Shown piece after piece: positions 10,382-15,707 of a stretch of 64,000 nucleotides of DNA. Below the pieces are notes generated by a model. That model made no database searches, was not told the origin of the DNA, and saw only the letters and a program-made list of their open reading frames with translations. Each line of letters opens with the position of its first letter. Position 1 is the stretch's first letter. The position numbers and the translations under genes are program-made. The stretch comes from Microcaldota archaeon (GTDB taxonomy: Archaea; Micrarchaeota; Micrarchaeia; Micrarchaeales; Micrarchaeaceae): positions 1-64,000 of the forward strand of contig JAKAWS010000002.1 of the NCBI GenBank assembly GCA_021816885.1, read 5' to 3'.

Positions 10382-10765
10382 CTACCTGCGTAGCCTATCC
10401 TTTGCAGGCGTTTTATCAAATTCGAGCACCCCTGCGTCGAAGTTGACATCTACCCCGGCACCATAAGTGGGCATCTTTGTGTAGTCAGGAACCAACACGC
10501 CGTCATAAACCCGCGCACGGCCCAAAATCATATCGCCGGCAGAAACCCATGCGTTTGAACGAAAATCAAGATTATCTTCCCTTTCTATAAATCCCCCTAT
10601 ATCACCTTTCTTAACCTTCCCGAAATCGTTAGTAGCCACTATTTGATGGAGCGTTTTGTCTCCTATCTGAACGGTTTTGCCGGTAAATCCATAATGCGTG
10701 TTCTCTTCGCTTATATGCTGAACTTGTTTTTGTGTCGTCTCCATATTATCACTAGTACTGTCCAT
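10382..10765 (-). CDS. YdcK-like hexapeptide-repeat-type protein, accessory
   Basis: A 127-aa protein. The core TLHQIVATNDFGKVKKGDIG followed by GFIEREDNLDFRSNAWV matches a motif common in phage, plasmid and island proteins of the YdcK / left-handed beta-helix kind (…KDFG-VK-GDLGG-IE-E-NLS--GNAWV…). Only one or two beta-helix rungs remain, so this copy is short. The role is unknown. A TATA-like ttttatatctgg about 15-25 nt upstream supports expression. The transposon at 10795 inserted only about 22 bp upstream of this gene, close to its promoter. The C-terminal third (YGAGVDVNFDAGVLEFDKT) is not recognisable. Confidence 0.55.
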   Translation of the reverse strand: MDSTSDNMETTQKQVQHISEENTHYGFTGKTVQIGDKTLHQIVATNDFGKVKKGDIGGFIEREDNLDFRSNAWVSAGDMILGRARVYDGVLVPDYTKMPTYGAGVDVNFDAGVLEFDKTPAKDRLRR

Positions 10766-10786
10766 TATCCAGATATAAAAACCTTG

Positions 10787-10794
10787 TCTAAAGC
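10787..10794. repeat. Target-site duplication, left copy (TCTAAAGC)
   Basis: The 8-bp sequence TCTAAAGC lies directly outside the left inverted repeat. It recurs in the same orientation at 15176-15183, outside the right inverted repeat. An 8-bp duplication is the size made by IS6-family (and also IS1/IS1595) transposases and marks the insertion site. Confidence 0.9.
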
Positions 10795-10843
10795 GGTATT
10801 GTCAACAAACTCGGCACCTATGATTAAATGTCGCATTCGGCAC
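10795..10843 (+). repeat. Left terminal inverted repeat of the transposon
   Basis: Begins GGTATTGTC, then a 7-bp spacer, TCGGCACC, and a 25-bp block (TATGATTAAATG… TTCGGCAC). The right end read on the other strand has the same blocks with a 6-bp spacer; the 25-bp block differs at one position. A GG start followed by a TGT-containing motif is typical of IS6-family ends. Confidence 0.88.
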
Positions 10844-10844
10844 T

Positions 10845-11309
10845 TTAATAGGGTGTGGTCGGCGTAGTGCTTGAATTATATGAGGTAAAAGCAAATAAGT
10901 AAAAGATAAGTGTTACTACAACAAAGATGATACTAAATGCGATTATGTAAGAGTATATATCTGCATCTTTCTTATCGAATAGCTTTTTGCAAGCCCAATA
11001 CAAACCATATCCAATTAGAAACCCGCCTGCACCTATAATTATTCCAGCTGAAAACTCCAACAACCTATGTCTGTTTTCTTTCATCGATTTATAAAGTAAA
11101 GATGCGACTATAGCTGTGAAAATTAATGCAACCAACATGGAGGCTATAAAAAGATAAACATAAGGGTGGTTAATGATAAAATTTGGAACCGAGAGTGCCA
11201 AACCACCTGCTACACCGTATGCCAATGAATATACAATTATAAAAGCAGTTATCATACCAAGAATAAAGAGAACTATTGATAACGCACCTATCTTATGATT
11301 GCGTATCAT
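10845..11309 (-). CDS. Four-helix membrane protein, transposon cargo
   Basis: A 154-aa protein with four predicted membrane segments: residues about 9-32, 46-71, 84-108 and 122-145. A short cytoplasmic loop KSMKENRHR and a charged KKLFDKKDAD loop separate them, and the tail is Ser/Thr/Pro-rich. I do not recognise a family. The stop codon lies 2 bp inside the left inverted repeat and its start is 9 bp from the transposase stop, so it is co-directional with and probably transcribed after the transposase. Because it is part of the mobile unit, a role in transposition, immunity or export is possible, but none is shown by the sequence. Confidence 0.6.
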   Translation of the reverse strand: MIRNHKIGALSIVLFILGMITAFIIVYSLAYGVAGGLALSVPNFIINHPYVYLFIASMLVALIFTAIVASLLYKSMKENRHRLLEFSAGIIIGAGGFLIGYGLYWACKKLFDKKDADIYSYIIAFSIIFVVVTLIFYLFAFTSYNSSTTPTTPY

Positions 11310-11317
11310 TCAATCAA

Positions 11318-12484
11318 TTATAGATGACTGCTAAGTTTTATTAAGCTTAGCCACCTGTTTCTTTCATTACCTATGCTGATGCCTGCTACTTGAGAGGGCG
11401 TTAGTCCGTTAAAGGTCATGTGCGGTTTAATGTAATTGTAGTAGGTCTTCCAATTATCTATATATCGCTCCGCTCCTTTCTCGTTCTTTTGACCTCTTAT
11501 TACCTTATCACGCTCCCTAAACGTTGCATGGTATCTTTCTATTAGCTGGTTGTCCATCTTGCTTGTAGCGTGCAGAAGGGTCTCGTCAGGTTCGCTGTAT
11601 GAATGTATCTTGTGCCAACCAGCCATGAACTCCCTGCGTATAGCCTTCTTGTAGAATTGACCTTTATCGGTTGCTATTTCTGTTGGTTTCTGCGATAGAT
11701 AGGGCTTAGTCTTCTGTATGATGCTCCTTGCATCAGAGATAAACCTCTTCTTTGTTATCTGATTGGCGAGCAGGAACCTCGTCTTGTTGTCAAGGACGTT
11801 CCAGCACCACTCATTAACACCCTTGACCTTTACTGCCTGCTCGTCTATGTGTATCCTCTCGCTTGTCTGAGGCTTTAAAGTATTTGTGTAATCGTTTATC
11901 CTTGACATGAAGCGGTTAATCCAGCGTCTTACTGTTTCGTGGTGAAGTTTCAGACCGAAGTTCTTGTAGAGCGTGTCCTGAATGTCCCTTAGCGAGTTGC
12001 CCTTGTAATACATGTCAAGGACGAGGCAGACCATACGAGCATTACCCTTGATGCCTTTTGCTGGGTCAAGGACGAAGAAGGCACAGCACTCTAAACACTT
12101 GTATTTCTGCTTGTCTCCTGACTTGTTCTTTCTCATGCCCTTCTGTATTAGCTTGTCGCTCTTGCAGTTAGGACATATCCTTTCATCAAGCACTTCATCA
12201 ACATCAAAAGCGTCCATCTCTACCTTGTTCTTTAGCTTATTAAATAGAATTATGGCGTCTATGTGCTTACAGTATAGACCCTTTTCCTTGCCTCTGAATT
12301 GGTAGTCAGGGCAGTCACAAGAGTAGGCGTCTATGTGGCTTACTGTGTATTTCTTGGTGCCATCAGAAGAAGGCACCAGATAGACACCACTGCTTACCGC
12401 TTCTGGAACCCTGTCGTTCAAGAGGGCAGATGCTCTCGCTTTCCTGTCATCAGACAGCTTCTTTAGGTCTGTGTTTGCGTTCAT
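11318..12484 (-). CDS. IS6/IS240-like DDE transposase with N-terminal SWIM zinc finger
   Basis: A 388-aa enzyme that would mobilise the surrounding element by DDE chemistry. Domains: a SWIM zinc finger (C56, C58, C72, H74), a zinc ribbon (CPNC at 104-107, CLEC at 130-133), a helix-turn-helix-like region (NSLRDIQDTLYKNFGLKLHH, about 163-182), and an RNase H-fold core with D214 (HIDEQAVKVKG), D273 (TDKGQFY) and E316 (LIERYHATFRERDK). The WCWNVLD and DEQAVKVKG segments resemble IS6-family transposases, which are usually about 230 aa. The extra N-terminal 90 residues with the SWIM finger are the main difference. RBS GGTG precedes the ATG. Confidence 0.9.
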   Translation of the reverse strand: MNANTDLKKLSDDRKARASALLNDRVPEAVSSGVYLVPSSDGTKKYTVSHIDAYSCDCPDYQFRGKEKGLYCKHIDAIILFNKLKNKVEMDAFDVDEVLDERICPNCKSDKLIQKGMRKNKSGDKQKYKCLECCAFFVLDPAKGIKGNARMVCLVLDMYYKGNSLRDIQDTLYKNFGLKLHHETVRRWINRFMSRINDYTNTLKPQTSERIHIDEQAVKVKGVNEWCWNVLDNKTRFLLANQITKKRFISDARSIIQKTKPYLSQKPTEIATDKGQFYKKAIRREFMAGWHKIHSYSEPDETLLHATSKMDNQLIERYHATFRERDKVIRGQKNEKGAERYIDNWKTYYNYIKPHMTFNGLTPSQVAGISIGNERNRWLSLIKLSSHL

Positions 12485-12569
12485 ATTTACACCTTCTTTG
12501 TTTCCTTCTGTTCTATATATAATATATAGAGCATATAGATATATATACTTATTGGTTCATTACTTAATC
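12485..12569. promoter_or_regulatory. Divergent promoter inside the transposon
   Basis: An 85-bp, very AT-rich gap between the transposase (leftward) and the cargo operon (rightward), with overlapping TATA-like runs (tatatataatatatagag and tatagatatatatac). One promoter region could serve both directions, tying transposase and restriction-modification expression together. Confidence 0.6.
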
Positions 12570-12731
12570 ATGGGTAAAACAAAGAAACCTGAGGATAAGG
12601 CGATAACTAAGTCCATTACTATTTTACCTCGCCATGAGGAATATATACAGTCTAATTTTATAAACCTGTCAAAGTTCGTGCAAGGCAAAATAGACGAGGA
12701 GATAAACAAAAAGAAAGGTGTTAAAAAATGA
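12570..12731 (+). CDS. Small basic protein (53 aa), probable regulator of the RM gene
   Basis: A lysine-rich 53-aa protein. The part KSITILPRHEEYIQSNFINL followed by SKFVQGKIDEEINK resembles the strand plus two helices of ribbon-helix-helix repressors or antitoxins. That assignment is by eye and tentative. I start at the ATG at 12570; the frame is open upstream, but that would run through the AT-rich promoter. It overlaps the next gene by ATGA, so the pair is translationally coupled. It may control the restriction-modification gene in the way C-proteins or antitoxins do. Confidence 0.6.
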   Translation: MGKTKKPEDKAITKSITILPRHEEYIQSNFINLSKFVQGKIDEEINKKKGVKK

Positions 12732-15118
12732 CCGAGGACACCGAAAAGAAGTCCGAGATGGACGTTATTTTCAAGCAGATTGCACCAGTGTTGGAAAAAC
12801 TGGGATACAGCGAGAAGGTCAAGGGAGAGATTGAGCATGAAAAGTCAATCCAGATAGGCAAGGGCAAATACGTTTATCCTGACATAGTAATCAGCATCAA
12901 AGGTGTCCCTGTAATTGCCCTTGACGGAAAGAACCCAAACGAGAATTTGGACTTATATGAAAGGCAAATACTCGCTTATGGTTTGCTGCTAAAAACGCCT
13001 TATTCCGTCCTATCAAACGGAAGCATAATCAGGGTTTATGAGACCCAAACAGAGAAAGTGGTATGGGAAAAGGCGATAGATAAGACGCCAACCTTCCTCT
13101 CCAAAGAAAATCTAATCAAGAAGATAAGCAAGACAATAGAGACAGTATCCGAGGAAAGACTGGAAGAGGCAAAGAAAACGCTACTCGTTTTTGAGGGGAT
13201 AAAGGAGTTCTCAAATATTCTGTCAAAATGTGAGGACACAATAAGGGACATAGACGGTCTGACTGGTGCTGACGCTTTTGACGAGATTAGTAAACTGCTT
13301 TTTACGAAAATGTATTTTGAGAAAAAGGCGATAGAAGGTGGGTCAAATCTATTCTCGCTCACAAACATAAAAAGTAATGGCGGCGCAAAGTATGTGCGAG
13401 AGTATCTTTTCAAGGCAGCGAAGGACAACAACAAGGACATATTCTTAGGGAACGAGACGATAAAACTGGAAGATGCGAGCATAGAAAAGATGGTCGGACT
13501 TTTGCAGGATTATACGCTCATACGAACAGATGTAGATGTCAAGGGCAAAGCATTTGAAATATTCTTAGGGAAGACCTTTACTGGCGATTTGGGTCAATTC
13601 TTTACACCAAGAACGATAGTTAGGTTTGCGGTGCTTTTCGCAGACCCAGAAATAAATTCGCCGATAGATGAGAAGGGCAAATCGCCTTATCTCGTTCTTG
13701 ACCCAGCGTGCGGTTCTGGCGGTTTCCTCATAGAAATCTTTAATGCAATACTGGAAAAAATAAAACGTCAGCCAGAGAGCAAACAAAGCGGACTATTTGA
13801 ACAGCTTAGAATGCAGCAAATCTTCGGGATAGACATTAATGAACGCTTGGTAAGAGTAGCAAAAATGAACATGGTGCTGCATGGAGACGGGCATGGTGGC
13901 ATCTACAAAGCGAATGGACTGGAAGGAACCGCTAACGTCAAAGACGGCACCTTTGACCTTGTTATCACAAATCCGCCTTTCGGCAACAAGGATACCAAGC
14001 CAGACCTGCTCAAGAATTTTGAACTGGGAAAACGAGACGGCGCACCCATGAAAGAGCAGCTAAGGGAGATACTTTTCGTTGAAAAGTGCATTAACCTCTT
14101 GAAAGCGGGGGGGGGCGAGCTTGCAATTCTACTGCCTGATGGGATACTGAACAACGAAAGAGGGACGTATGTAAGAGACTTCATAAAATCAAAGACCATA
14201 ATCAAGGCGGTTGTTAGTTTGCCAGATAGGGCATTCAAAGCTACTGGTGCAAACAGCAAGACAAGTCTGCTATTCCTCAAAAAGAAGTCTGAGGAAAATG
14301 AGCCGCAGCCACCGATATTCATGGCGGTTGCCGAGTATGTCGGTTATGAGACGAGGACAAAGGAAGCCAAGCAGATAGAGGATAACGACCTTCCTAAGAT
14401 ACTGGACACTTACAAGGAATACAAATCGGGTAAATTCTTTGAGAACGTGAAAACAAAGACAGATACGCTTGAGATTTTGCTGAACTCGCCCTCATGTTTC
14501 CTCATAGGCACCGATTTTGTAAAAGACAGAATAGATGCAACTTACTACTACGCAAAATATATCTTTGAACTGGAAAAGGAAGGTTGCATAATCAGCGACG
14601 TTGCGAGCAGGTCAGAAGTGATAGTCAATCCGCAGAAAGAACCAGCAAAAGCGATAAAATATATTCAATACAGCAACATAGAAAAGACCTTAGGCGACGT
14701 GATAAATTACTTTGACCTATTGGGAGAAGAAGCCCCATCACGGGCGAAGCTGTTTGTGAATGCTGGTGATGTTATCGCTGCTAAGGTCAAGGACAGCGAA
14801 GAAAACATAGCGATAATCCCTAAGGAACTGGAAGGGTCAATAGTCTCATCAGGGTTCGTGGTGGTCAAACCGATAAAACCCATGACTTCTGAGGCACTAT
14901 TCGTATTGATGAGGCTTAGAACCACAACTAATCAGGTCAGGTGGAAATCGTCAGGGACGATACTTCCAGCTATCTCCGATGAGGAATACATGACAATCAA
15001 GATACCCAAATTGACGGAAAAGGAGATAGAAAGGATAACAAAAGAGGTCAAGGAAGTCAATATCCAAAGAGCGATAATAAAAGACACTCTGAATAAGCTC
15101 TCAGTAGAATTCAAGTGA
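12728..15118 (+). CDS. Single-chain restriction-modification enzyme: HSDR_N-like nuclease + N6-adenine methylase + HsdS-like domain
   Basis: 796 aa with three parts. Residues 1-150 resemble the HsdR N-terminal nuclease: P51-D52, D66-x-K68 and Q80xxxY84 fit a PD-(D/E)xK plus QxxxY pattern, with Asp in place of the usual Glu. Residues 160-560 are an HsdM-type N6-adenine methylase: QFFTPR (290-295), DPACGSGG (325-332), NPPF (415-418) and LLPDGIL. Residues about 570-796 look like one HsdS target-recognition domain plus a helix (TEKEIERITKEVKEVNIQRA). R, M and S in one chain is the type IIG layout. A run of nine G (14107-14115) lies in the methylase part. Whether the nuclease cuts is untested; it could be methylase only. 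Confidence 0.85.
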   Translation: MTEDTEKKSEMDVIFKQIAPVLEKLGYSEKVKGEIEHEKSIQIGKGKYVYPDIVISIKGVPVIALDGKNPNENLDLYERQILAYGLLLKTPYSVLSNGSIIRVYETQTEKVVWEKAIDKTPTFLSKENLIKKISKTIETVSEERLEEAKKTLLVFEGIKEFSNILSKCEDTIRDIDGLTGADAFDEISKLLFTKMYFEKKAIEGGSNLFSLTNIKSNGGAKYVREYLFKAAKDNNKDIFLGNETIKLEDASIEKMVGLLQDYTLIRTDVDVKGKAFEIFLGKTFTGDLGQFFTPRTIVRFAVLFADPEINSPIDEKGKSPYLVLDPACGSGGFLIEIFNAILEKIKRQPESKQSGLFEQLRMQQIFGIDINERLVRVAKMNMVLHGDGHGGIYKANGLEGTANVKDGTFDLVITNPPFGNKDTKPDLLKNFELGKRDGAPMKEQLREILFVEKCINLLKAGGGELAILLPDGILNNERGTYVRDFIKSKTIIKAVVSLPDRAFKATGANSKTSLLFLKKKSEENEPQPPIFMAVAEYVGYETRTKEAKQIEDNDLPKILDTYKEYKSGKFFENVKTKTDTLEILLNSPSCFLIGTDFVKDRIDATYYYAKYIFELEKEGCIISDVASRSEVIVNPQKEPAKAIKYIQYSNIEKTLGDVINYFDLLGEEAPSRAKLFVNAGDVIAAKVKDSEENIAIIPKELEGSIVSSGFVVVKPIKPMTSEALFVLMRLRTTTNQVRWKSSGTILPAISDEEYMTIKIPKLTEKEIERITKEVKEVNIQRAIIKDTLNKLSVEFK
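14107..14115 (+). repeat. G9 homopolymer within the methylase reading frame
   Basis: Nine consecutive G encode the end of Ala plus Gly-Gly-Gly in LKAGGGELAIL, just after the NPPF motif. Gain or loss of one G would truncate the protein before the target-recognition domain. It is the longest G run I noticed in the window. Confidence 0.9.
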
Positions 15119-15126
15119 TTTTCTTA

Positions 15127-15175
15127 GGTGCCGAATGCGACATTTAATCACAGGTGCCGAAAATGCGACAATACC
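15127..15175 (-). repeat. Right terminal inverted repeat of the transposon
   Basis: Read on the minus strand it starts GGTATTGTC and contains two tandem copies of GTCGCATT(TT)CGGCACC separated by TGTGATTAAAT. It matches the left end except for the 6/7-bp spacer and one base in the 25-bp block. The doubled motif may be a pair of transposase-binding sites. Confidence 0.88.
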
Positions 15176-15183
15176 TCTAAAGC
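15176..15183. repeat. Target-site duplication, right copy (TCTAAAGC)
   Basis: Direct repeat of 10787-10794, immediately outside the right inverted repeat. Joining the two copies restores a continuous intergenic region between the divergent YdcK-like gene (10765) and the pilin-like gene (15252). Confidence 0.9.
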
Positions 15184-15251
15184 AGGTTTGTGTCAAAGCC
15201 TGGCTTACCCGATGCCCTATATTTTTATAGGTTAACATCCATTTACCACAG

Positions 15252-15707
15252 ATGAAGGCTCAATCTGCCATGGAGTACCTCACTACATACGGGTGGGCAA
15301 TCCTCATACTCGCAATTGTGGTTCTTGTTATAGTGAGCAGCGGATTTCTGACGCAGAAACCCGCCGACTTATGCTCCTTCCAGTACAACTTTACCTGCAC
15401 TTCCTACTATATAAACTCTAACGGCATACTCAATGTCTCAATAACGCAGCGTACCGGCTACAACATAACTGCTACTTACATTGGATGCGATTCAAATGTC
15501 TCATCGTCCGCCATACTGAAATCGATATCAATCAATGTCCCAAACTACGGCAACTTCTCCGAAACACTCCAATGCTACTATTCCGGTAAGGATTTCAATA
15601 GCACTATTGGTAGCTCATATAAGGGATACATCATATTTGAGTACACTAATTCTCTCAGCGGGTATGCACATACAATTGCAGGCAGGATAGTATACAACAT
15701 AAACTAA
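15252..15707 (+). CDS. Class III signal peptide / type IV pilin-like surface protein
   Basis: A 151-aa exported protein. The N-terminus MKA|QSAMEYLTTYGWAILIL is an archaeal class III signal: a short basic leader, a QSxxEY cleavage site processed by an EppA/FlaK-like prepilin peptidase, then one hydrophobic helix (about 15-31) used for filament assembly. The rest is a soluble domain with four cysteines (C38, C49, C79, C105 by eye) that could pair, and many N-x-S/T sequons. TATA box ctatatttttatag lies about 25-35 nt before the ATG. Similar proteins are frequent in DPANN archaea. The ends of the transposon lie 70 bp upstream. Confidence 0.85.
   Translation: MKAQSAMEYLTTYGWAILILAIVVLVIVSSGFLTQKPADLCSFQYNFTCTSYYINSNGILNVSITQRTGYNITATYIGCDSNVSSSAILKSISINVPNYGNFSETLQCYYSGKDFNSTIGSSYKGYIIFEYTNSLSGYAHTIAGRIVYNIN

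Follow-up and report, generated by a model that had tools for sequence, protein, structure and literature searches.

Members of the IS6 family of insertion sequences (IS) generate 8-bp target duplications, end in 14-bp repeats and are mostly 700-890 bp long, with a single transposase gene (PMC7986276). Two clades of the family, h and i, have a zinc finger, which in clade i is combined with a supplementary N-terminal extension, and ISDsp3 is the only passenger-carrying member listed in the review; insertion sequences with passenger genes are termed tIS (PMC7986276). Restriction-modification (RM) and OLD-type genes are carried by Tn7-like transposons, and a survey detected no transposase of that kind in archaea (PMC8649781). 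Here we analysed a 64,000-nt stretch of a Micrarchaeota genome (GCA_021816885.1, contig JAKAWS010000002.1, positions 1 to 64,000; hereafter the window), in which a sequence-only reading had noticed an IS6-like transposon with an RM gene inside its ends. We conclude, with a probability of roughly 0.85 for the explanation as a whole, that positions 10795-15175 are one transposon of an IS6-related and apparently undescribed Micrarchaeota family, with its passengers between a single pair of ends. No description of such a family was found in the open-access papers searched.

The element is 4381 bp long and contains four genes. It is flanked by the 8-bp target duplication TCTAAAGC, which is the same at 10787-10794 and 15176-15183, as first reported. 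The left end (10795-10844, plus strand), of the 'ACAAA' type and on the transposase-downstream side, consists of an outer site, GGTATTGTCAACAAACTCGGCACC, and an inner site, TGTCGCATTCGGCACT (10829-10844), and the right end (15127-15175, minus strand), of the 'GCA' type, of an outer site, GGTATTGTCGCATTTTCGGCACC (15153-15175), and an inner site, TGTCGCATTCGGCACC (15127-15142). The outermost 9 nt, GGTATTGTC, are identical at both tips, and the inner 33 nt (10811-10843 versus 15128-15160) are 97% complementary; no inverted repeat in the interval 10600-15400 is stronger. At the matching place the left end reads ACAAA and the right end GCA, which puts the two ends out of register by one base. The imperfect inverted repeat of about 49 bp originally described at 10795-10843 and 15127-15175 thus keeps its positions, but each end is really a pair of half-sites, with the one-base shift between ends.

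The genes fill this space almost completely. A four-helix membrane protein of 154 amino acids (aa; 10845-11309, minus strand) is the variable passenger on the transposase-downstream side; a Pfam search with it gave nothing above cut-off, and several relatives hold other membrane proteins at its position. It is followed by the 388-aa transposase gene (11318-12484, minus strand), the divergent 53-aa gene (12570-12731, plus strand) and the gene for a 796-aa enzyme (12728-15118, plus strand), the last two sharing 4 nt (ATGA). The gaps between the outer genes and the element ends measure 1-2 nt and 8 nt, in agreement with the packing noted before. The host genome is a 795-kb assembly whose relatives are Micrarchaeota metagenome-assembled genomes, and it has one full copy of the element. 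A composite transposon made of two IS copies was ruled out, as there is a single transposase and a single copy in the genome, and a search of the same genome for extra copies or miniature inverted-repeat elements at 0-1 mismatch returned only the two ends already known.

The transposase was assigned from Pfam and NCBIfam profiles and from invariant columns in an alignment with seven relatives. Both DDE_Tnp_IS240 (PF13610; 60.7 bits, cut-off 27) and SWIM (22.3 bits, cut-off 19.6) score above their Pfam thresholds, so that the SWIM-finger DDE transposase of the sequence-only reading is upheld. Conserved alignment columns gave the catalytic triad D214/D273/E316 with R323 at +7 from the glutamate, the SWIM finger ligands C56, C58, C72 and H74 (CxC...CxH) and a zinc ribbon of two CxxC pairs (C104, C107, C130 and C133). 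All of these residues are invariant across the seven relatives. The IS6 model of NCBIfam, NF033587, is the best-scoring family for the window transposase and matches all seven family members; its score for the window protein is 112 bits, below the cut-off of 125. The label IS6-like is narrowed to IS6-related: the IS240-type DDE domain and the 8-bp duplications fit it, the sub-threshold NF033587 score and the extra SWIM and zinc-ribbon domains do not. Many Micrarchaeota genomes encode a protein of ~400 aa, seen at G000:C8:7964-8089 (L002), that has only the SWIM region in common with the transposase.

In a search of 148 related genomes and GTDB contigs, transposases 65-79% identical to that of the window were found only in Micrarchaeota. 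Around them lie seven further intact elements, with homologous ends and each with a perfect 8-bp duplication of different sequence, in the genomes G021 (CCTGGACA, 3224 bp), G100 (CTTCAATC, 3913 bp), G111 (GTCTTTTT, 2175 bp), G107 (ACAGAACG, 2501 bp), G004 (CTCAGCGC, 2704 bp), G076 (GCATGCGG, 2642 bp) and G088 (CTAAAAAT, 2740 bp), and an eighth, in G094 (CTGAAAAG), is split across two contigs. With the window element, this resolves nine insertion sites, each with an 8-bp duplication; family insertion sites are varied and mostly intergenic. Different passengers occupy the nine duplicated sites between the same kind of ends, which supports the proposal that cargo and ends move as a unit. Ends flanking a bare transposase were not found among the related elements. 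Furthermore, the end pattern has ~30 matches in 301 Micrarchaeota genomes, compared with 2 for a reversed-pattern control. A 488-bp pair of ends in G103 (L095, 5464-5951) encloses one 100-aa membrane open reading frame, with 7 of 8 duplication bases equal, and is a likely non-autonomous form that may hold cargo only.

After the 53-aa-type gene, the window element has the 796-aa enzyme, the elements of G107, G088 and G090 have membrane proteins, and that of G111 has nothing; in G040, where the element is decayed and only one end is recognised, the gene is followed by an AAA_15 ATPase and a TOPRIM-like protein. An N6_N4_Mtase-Mrr_cat fusion is carried in G100, G094, G090 and G124, with a more distant one in G067. 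As to whether cargo also occurs alone, the four close methylase-Mrr homologs among the 148 genomes (57-74% identical) all lie just inside an element end, ~50 bp from it in G100, G090 and G124 and ~320 bp in G094, where one more small gene lies between. G094 also has DUF6978 and DUF1828 proteins, which match the PADLOC candidates PDC-M24A/B. Many passengers are small membrane proteins, and for several of the other cargo types the label 'defence' rests on family names. Distant methylase-Mrr-type proteins in G009 (L162, 5305-8000) and G005 (L163) adjoin an apparent tyrosine recombinase fragment, so that such cargo may travel in other mobile elements as well. In G092 (L096, 7644-9436), a lone element end lies near a transposase remnant that has a TIR-domain protein on one side and a 255-aa membrane protein on the other; a second end was looked for and not found, and the TIR protein is tentative as cargo.

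The ends of the family share a compound layout, GGTnnTGTC-(GCA or ACAAA)-TC-box-spacer-TGTCGCATTC-box, with two copies of the box per end. The box is CGGCACC in the window element, G021, G100, G094 and G116, CGTCAGT or CGTCATC in G111, G107 and G088, CATTACC in G004 and G076, and CGGTTGT in G090. Comparing the outer with the inner box of each end gave 106 matches in 120 positions (permuted mean 69; 2 of 100,000 permutations as high), a result that is indicative because the boxes of the ten elements were entered by hand, one inner box (G088) was shifted by one base to fit, and the elements are related and not independent. The CATTACC class has 10 nt of additional spacing, close to one turn of the helix, as would fit a pair of transposase sites lying on the same DNA face. 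We also considered the hypervariable loop between D273 and E316 as the determinant of the end box and rejected it, since, read from the alignment and the end boxes, it does not follow the box. The ACAAA type is usually at the transposase-downstream end, and the ACAAA/GCA asymmetry is common to most intact relatives. With 9 bp identical at the tips and ~49-nt, two-site ends, the short, generally perfect repeats of ~14 bp known from IS6 are not matched.

Wherever the 5' side of the transposase gene was readable, a small gene diverges from it. Six elements, including that of the window, have a 52-53-aa ribbon-helix-helix (RHH)-like protein at the same position (48-58% identical), whereas a 46-55-aa zinc ribbon takes the place in G021, G094, G017 and G100, and another protein of 54-55 aa in G004 and G076. 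Relatives of the 53-aa protein show weak CcdA matches, and it is probably an RHH regulator. Since its homologs precede other cargo in other elements, the 53-aa gene belongs to the transposon backbone; the coupling to the 796-aa gene once ascribed to it is real at the level of the 4-nt overlap, but it is not an RM partner. Between the two divergent genes, the palindrome TGTTCTATATAT-A-ATATATAGAGCA (12509-12533) is a candidate operator.

The 796-aa enzyme combines three parts. The N6-adenine methylase (residues 269-571; motifs DPACGSGGF and NPPF) matches Pfam N6_Mtase with 148.5 bits against a cut-off of 20.4. It is preceded by an HSDR_N-like segment (~42-109) containing PD...DGK...QILAY, with QxxxY spacing, and followed by one single type I S-like recognition domain (633-781), of which residues 634-775 match the type I S subunits 5ybb_D and 3okg_A at 1e-19. 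The best match of the enzyme in the PDB is RM.BsaXI. On these features, the protein is best read as a type IIG-like RM enzyme in a single chain.

Several results weigh against the explanation that we favour. HSDR_N and HSDR_N_2 match with 21.5 and 19.2 bits (E = 2e-4 and 1e-3), below the Pfam cut-offs of 25.1 and 25. No second element with the full 796-aa cargo was found, and the nearest relative of the enzyme, in G031 (L165, 4195-7354), consists of separate genes for a 593-aa methylase and a 479-aa S-type protein, with no matched transposase; these split genes outside a transposon suggest that fusion accompanied or preceded capture. The RHH assignment of the 53-aa protein is weak, and a fold search gave no RHH match. 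The predicted structure of the transposase was too poor to be used (mean predicted local distance difference test score 43). The single copy in the host genome offers no direct sign of recent jumping there. Finally, no nucleotide-exact empty site was found, either for the window element in a same-genus genome or by joined-flank searches in the genera of G004 and G100, where the flanks are too divergent.

The main rival concerns the enzyme: the 796-aa protein could work solely as an orphan or epigenetic methylase, or belong to a larger defence system, and the cargo would then not be a complete RM system. The sub-threshold HSDR_N scores favour this, as does the best NCBIfam match, which is MAD2, the methylase subunit of multi-gene MADS (262 bits against a cut-off of 720), together with a weak MAD5 match of the S-like part. 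No other MAD gene is among the four genes of the element, which also favours this rival. Against this, the PD...DGK and QxxxY segment matches both HSDR_N profiles over the catalytic region, the fusion of nuclease, methylase and recognition parts fits single-chain enzymes, with RM.BsaXI the top PDB match, and sister elements carry fusions of a methylase to an Mrr nuclease. We consider this rival unlikely. For the fused RM-type enzyme named in the sequence-only reading, the methylase and S-type domains are clear, whereas nuclease activity, and with it the term RM, is predicted, since both HSDR_N matches fall below their cut-offs.

We also asked whether the window element could be a decayed, immobile remnant whose cargo persists as an ordinary host defence gene. 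Its single copy and the one-base asymmetry between its ends would agree with this; however, the transposase reading frame is intact over its full length and keeps every conserved catalytic and zinc residue, the target duplication is perfect, and most intact relatives have the same end asymmetry. Comparisons between hosts point to movement within the family. A transposase fragment in G116, from another host family, is 94% identical in amino acids and 86% in nucleotides, while the host protein Nre is only 49% identical, which argues for horizontal movement; the corresponding transposase figures for G003 and G021 are ~87% and 78%, versus 53% for host protein. At the insertion site, one same-genus genome is collinear (DNA polymerase X, pilin, Nre) and lacks the element. 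This is syntenic absence, not an exact empty site, as other pilin-like genes fill the interval; the sought-for empty site was therefore obtained only in this looser form. In that genome, G001 (L127, 8979-10532), additional pilin-like genes stand in the place of the 127-aa gene and the transposon of the window, marking a variable spot. A decayed remnant is, on balance, quite improbable. That the RM gene landed by chance in or beside an ordinary IS6-like element, whose ends do not mobilise it, would suit the transposase-only build of most described IS6 elements (PMC7986276) and the occurrence of the full 796-aa gene in one element only, but is very hard to reconcile with a duplication that directly borders the two outermost ends and so encloses all cargo, with a gene 8 nt from the end that overlaps the backbone 53-aa gene, and with relatives that all hold cargo inside their ends, methylase-Mrr lying just inside the end in 4 of 4 close homologs.

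Returning to the cargo transposon, we infer a mode of action. The transposase would bind two sites per end, each made of a TGTC core and an element-specific box (CGGCACC in the window), and would insert the whole unit through cuts staggered by 8 bp. The small gene that diverges from it, RHH-like in the window element, would repress the transposase and lead the cargo operon. The 796-aa enzyme, acting as an RM enzyme of the type IIG-like, single-chain kind, would methylate adenine and cleave invader DNA that lacks the modification, which would give the host protection and the element retention. As relatives with ends of the same kind bring other cargo, the element appears to be a small archaeal carrier by which defence and membrane-protein genes are exchanged.

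Micrarchaeota genomes are very small, and how they acquire defence genes is poorly understood. A concrete route would be a self-contained element of 2-4.4 kb that takes defence cargo between host families. The ends could also serve to find new defence genes, whatever lies between two ends and an 8-bp duplication being a candidate, and the repeated variable boxes make the end-specificity of the transposase directly testable. In a wider sense, it is about as likely as not that compact cargo transposons with a single transposase form a class peculiar to DPANN archaea, their modular passenger slot lying behind an interchangeable small DNA-binding regulator. Such a class would be dedicated to the transport of defence genes (RM, methylase-Mrr, PDC-M24, ATPase-TOPRIM) and form a convergent, miniature counterpart of defence-carrying Tn7-like transposons, its element-specific boxes, repeated at each end, keeping co-existing elements apart.

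More distant relatives place the family in context. In an IMG/VR contig (L190, 127-2974), a SWIM transposase that is 35% identical belongs to an element of 2848 bp that has GGGCTTGTC ends with two sites each, a 9-bp repeat (TCTATTATC) and other small genes. A viral origin was rejected, with no phage match and no pattern match in viral contigs (a single sequence was used), and so was a plasmid origin, as plasmids gave only 21-27% identical IS6 relatives among the matches listed. Other Micrarchaeota families have non-SWIM IS6-like transposases in units of 2.2-2.4 kb with 8-9-bp repeats, in G248 (L193, 2683-5073) and G212 (L192, 2868-5110), each beside a small MazE/AbrB-like gene; an HNH-repeat endonuclease is the passenger in G248, and an FMN reductase and an ArsR-like regulator are those in G212. 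Since passengers seem to be present in these less related elements too, cargo carrying may extend beyond the family.

Compared with the known systems, the Micrarchaeota elements resemble IS6 (IS26) in the DDE_Tnp_IS240 domain, a K/R 7 residues after the E, the 8-bp duplications and ends starting GG...TGT. They differ in their size of 2.2-4.4 kb with several passengers (versus mostly 700-890 bp), in ends of ~49-60 nt with two sites each (versus 14-bp inverted repeats), and in the SWIM finger, the divergent small regulator gene and the NF033587 score below cut-off. The zinc finger before the helix-turn-helix-DDE part recalls clades h and i, and the domain order resembles the review's description of clade i (PMC7986276). 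As passenger-carrying IS6-related elements they are like ISDsp3, and they widen the family beyond the one such member listed in the main review (PMC7986276). An IS-type transposase with passengers inside one end pair is also the build of a tIS, from which the Micrarchaeota family differs in its modular passenger slot, recurrent defence genes and small regulator at a conserved position. The 796-aa enzyme shares an N6-adenine methylase core, an S-type domain and an HSDR_N-like N-terminus with type IIG and type I-like RM enzymes (RM.BsaXI, HsdM plus HsdS) and MAD2, but is one chain with a single recognition domain and without a separate HsdR translocase or other MADS genes. Unlike Tn7-like transposons, the Micrarchaeota element is smaller, has a single IS6-type transposase, uses varied, mostly intergenic sites and showed no TnsA/C/D/E-like genes; like them, it holds RM/OLD-type cargo inside defined ends with repeated putative transposase-binding sites, and its relatives exchange that cargo.

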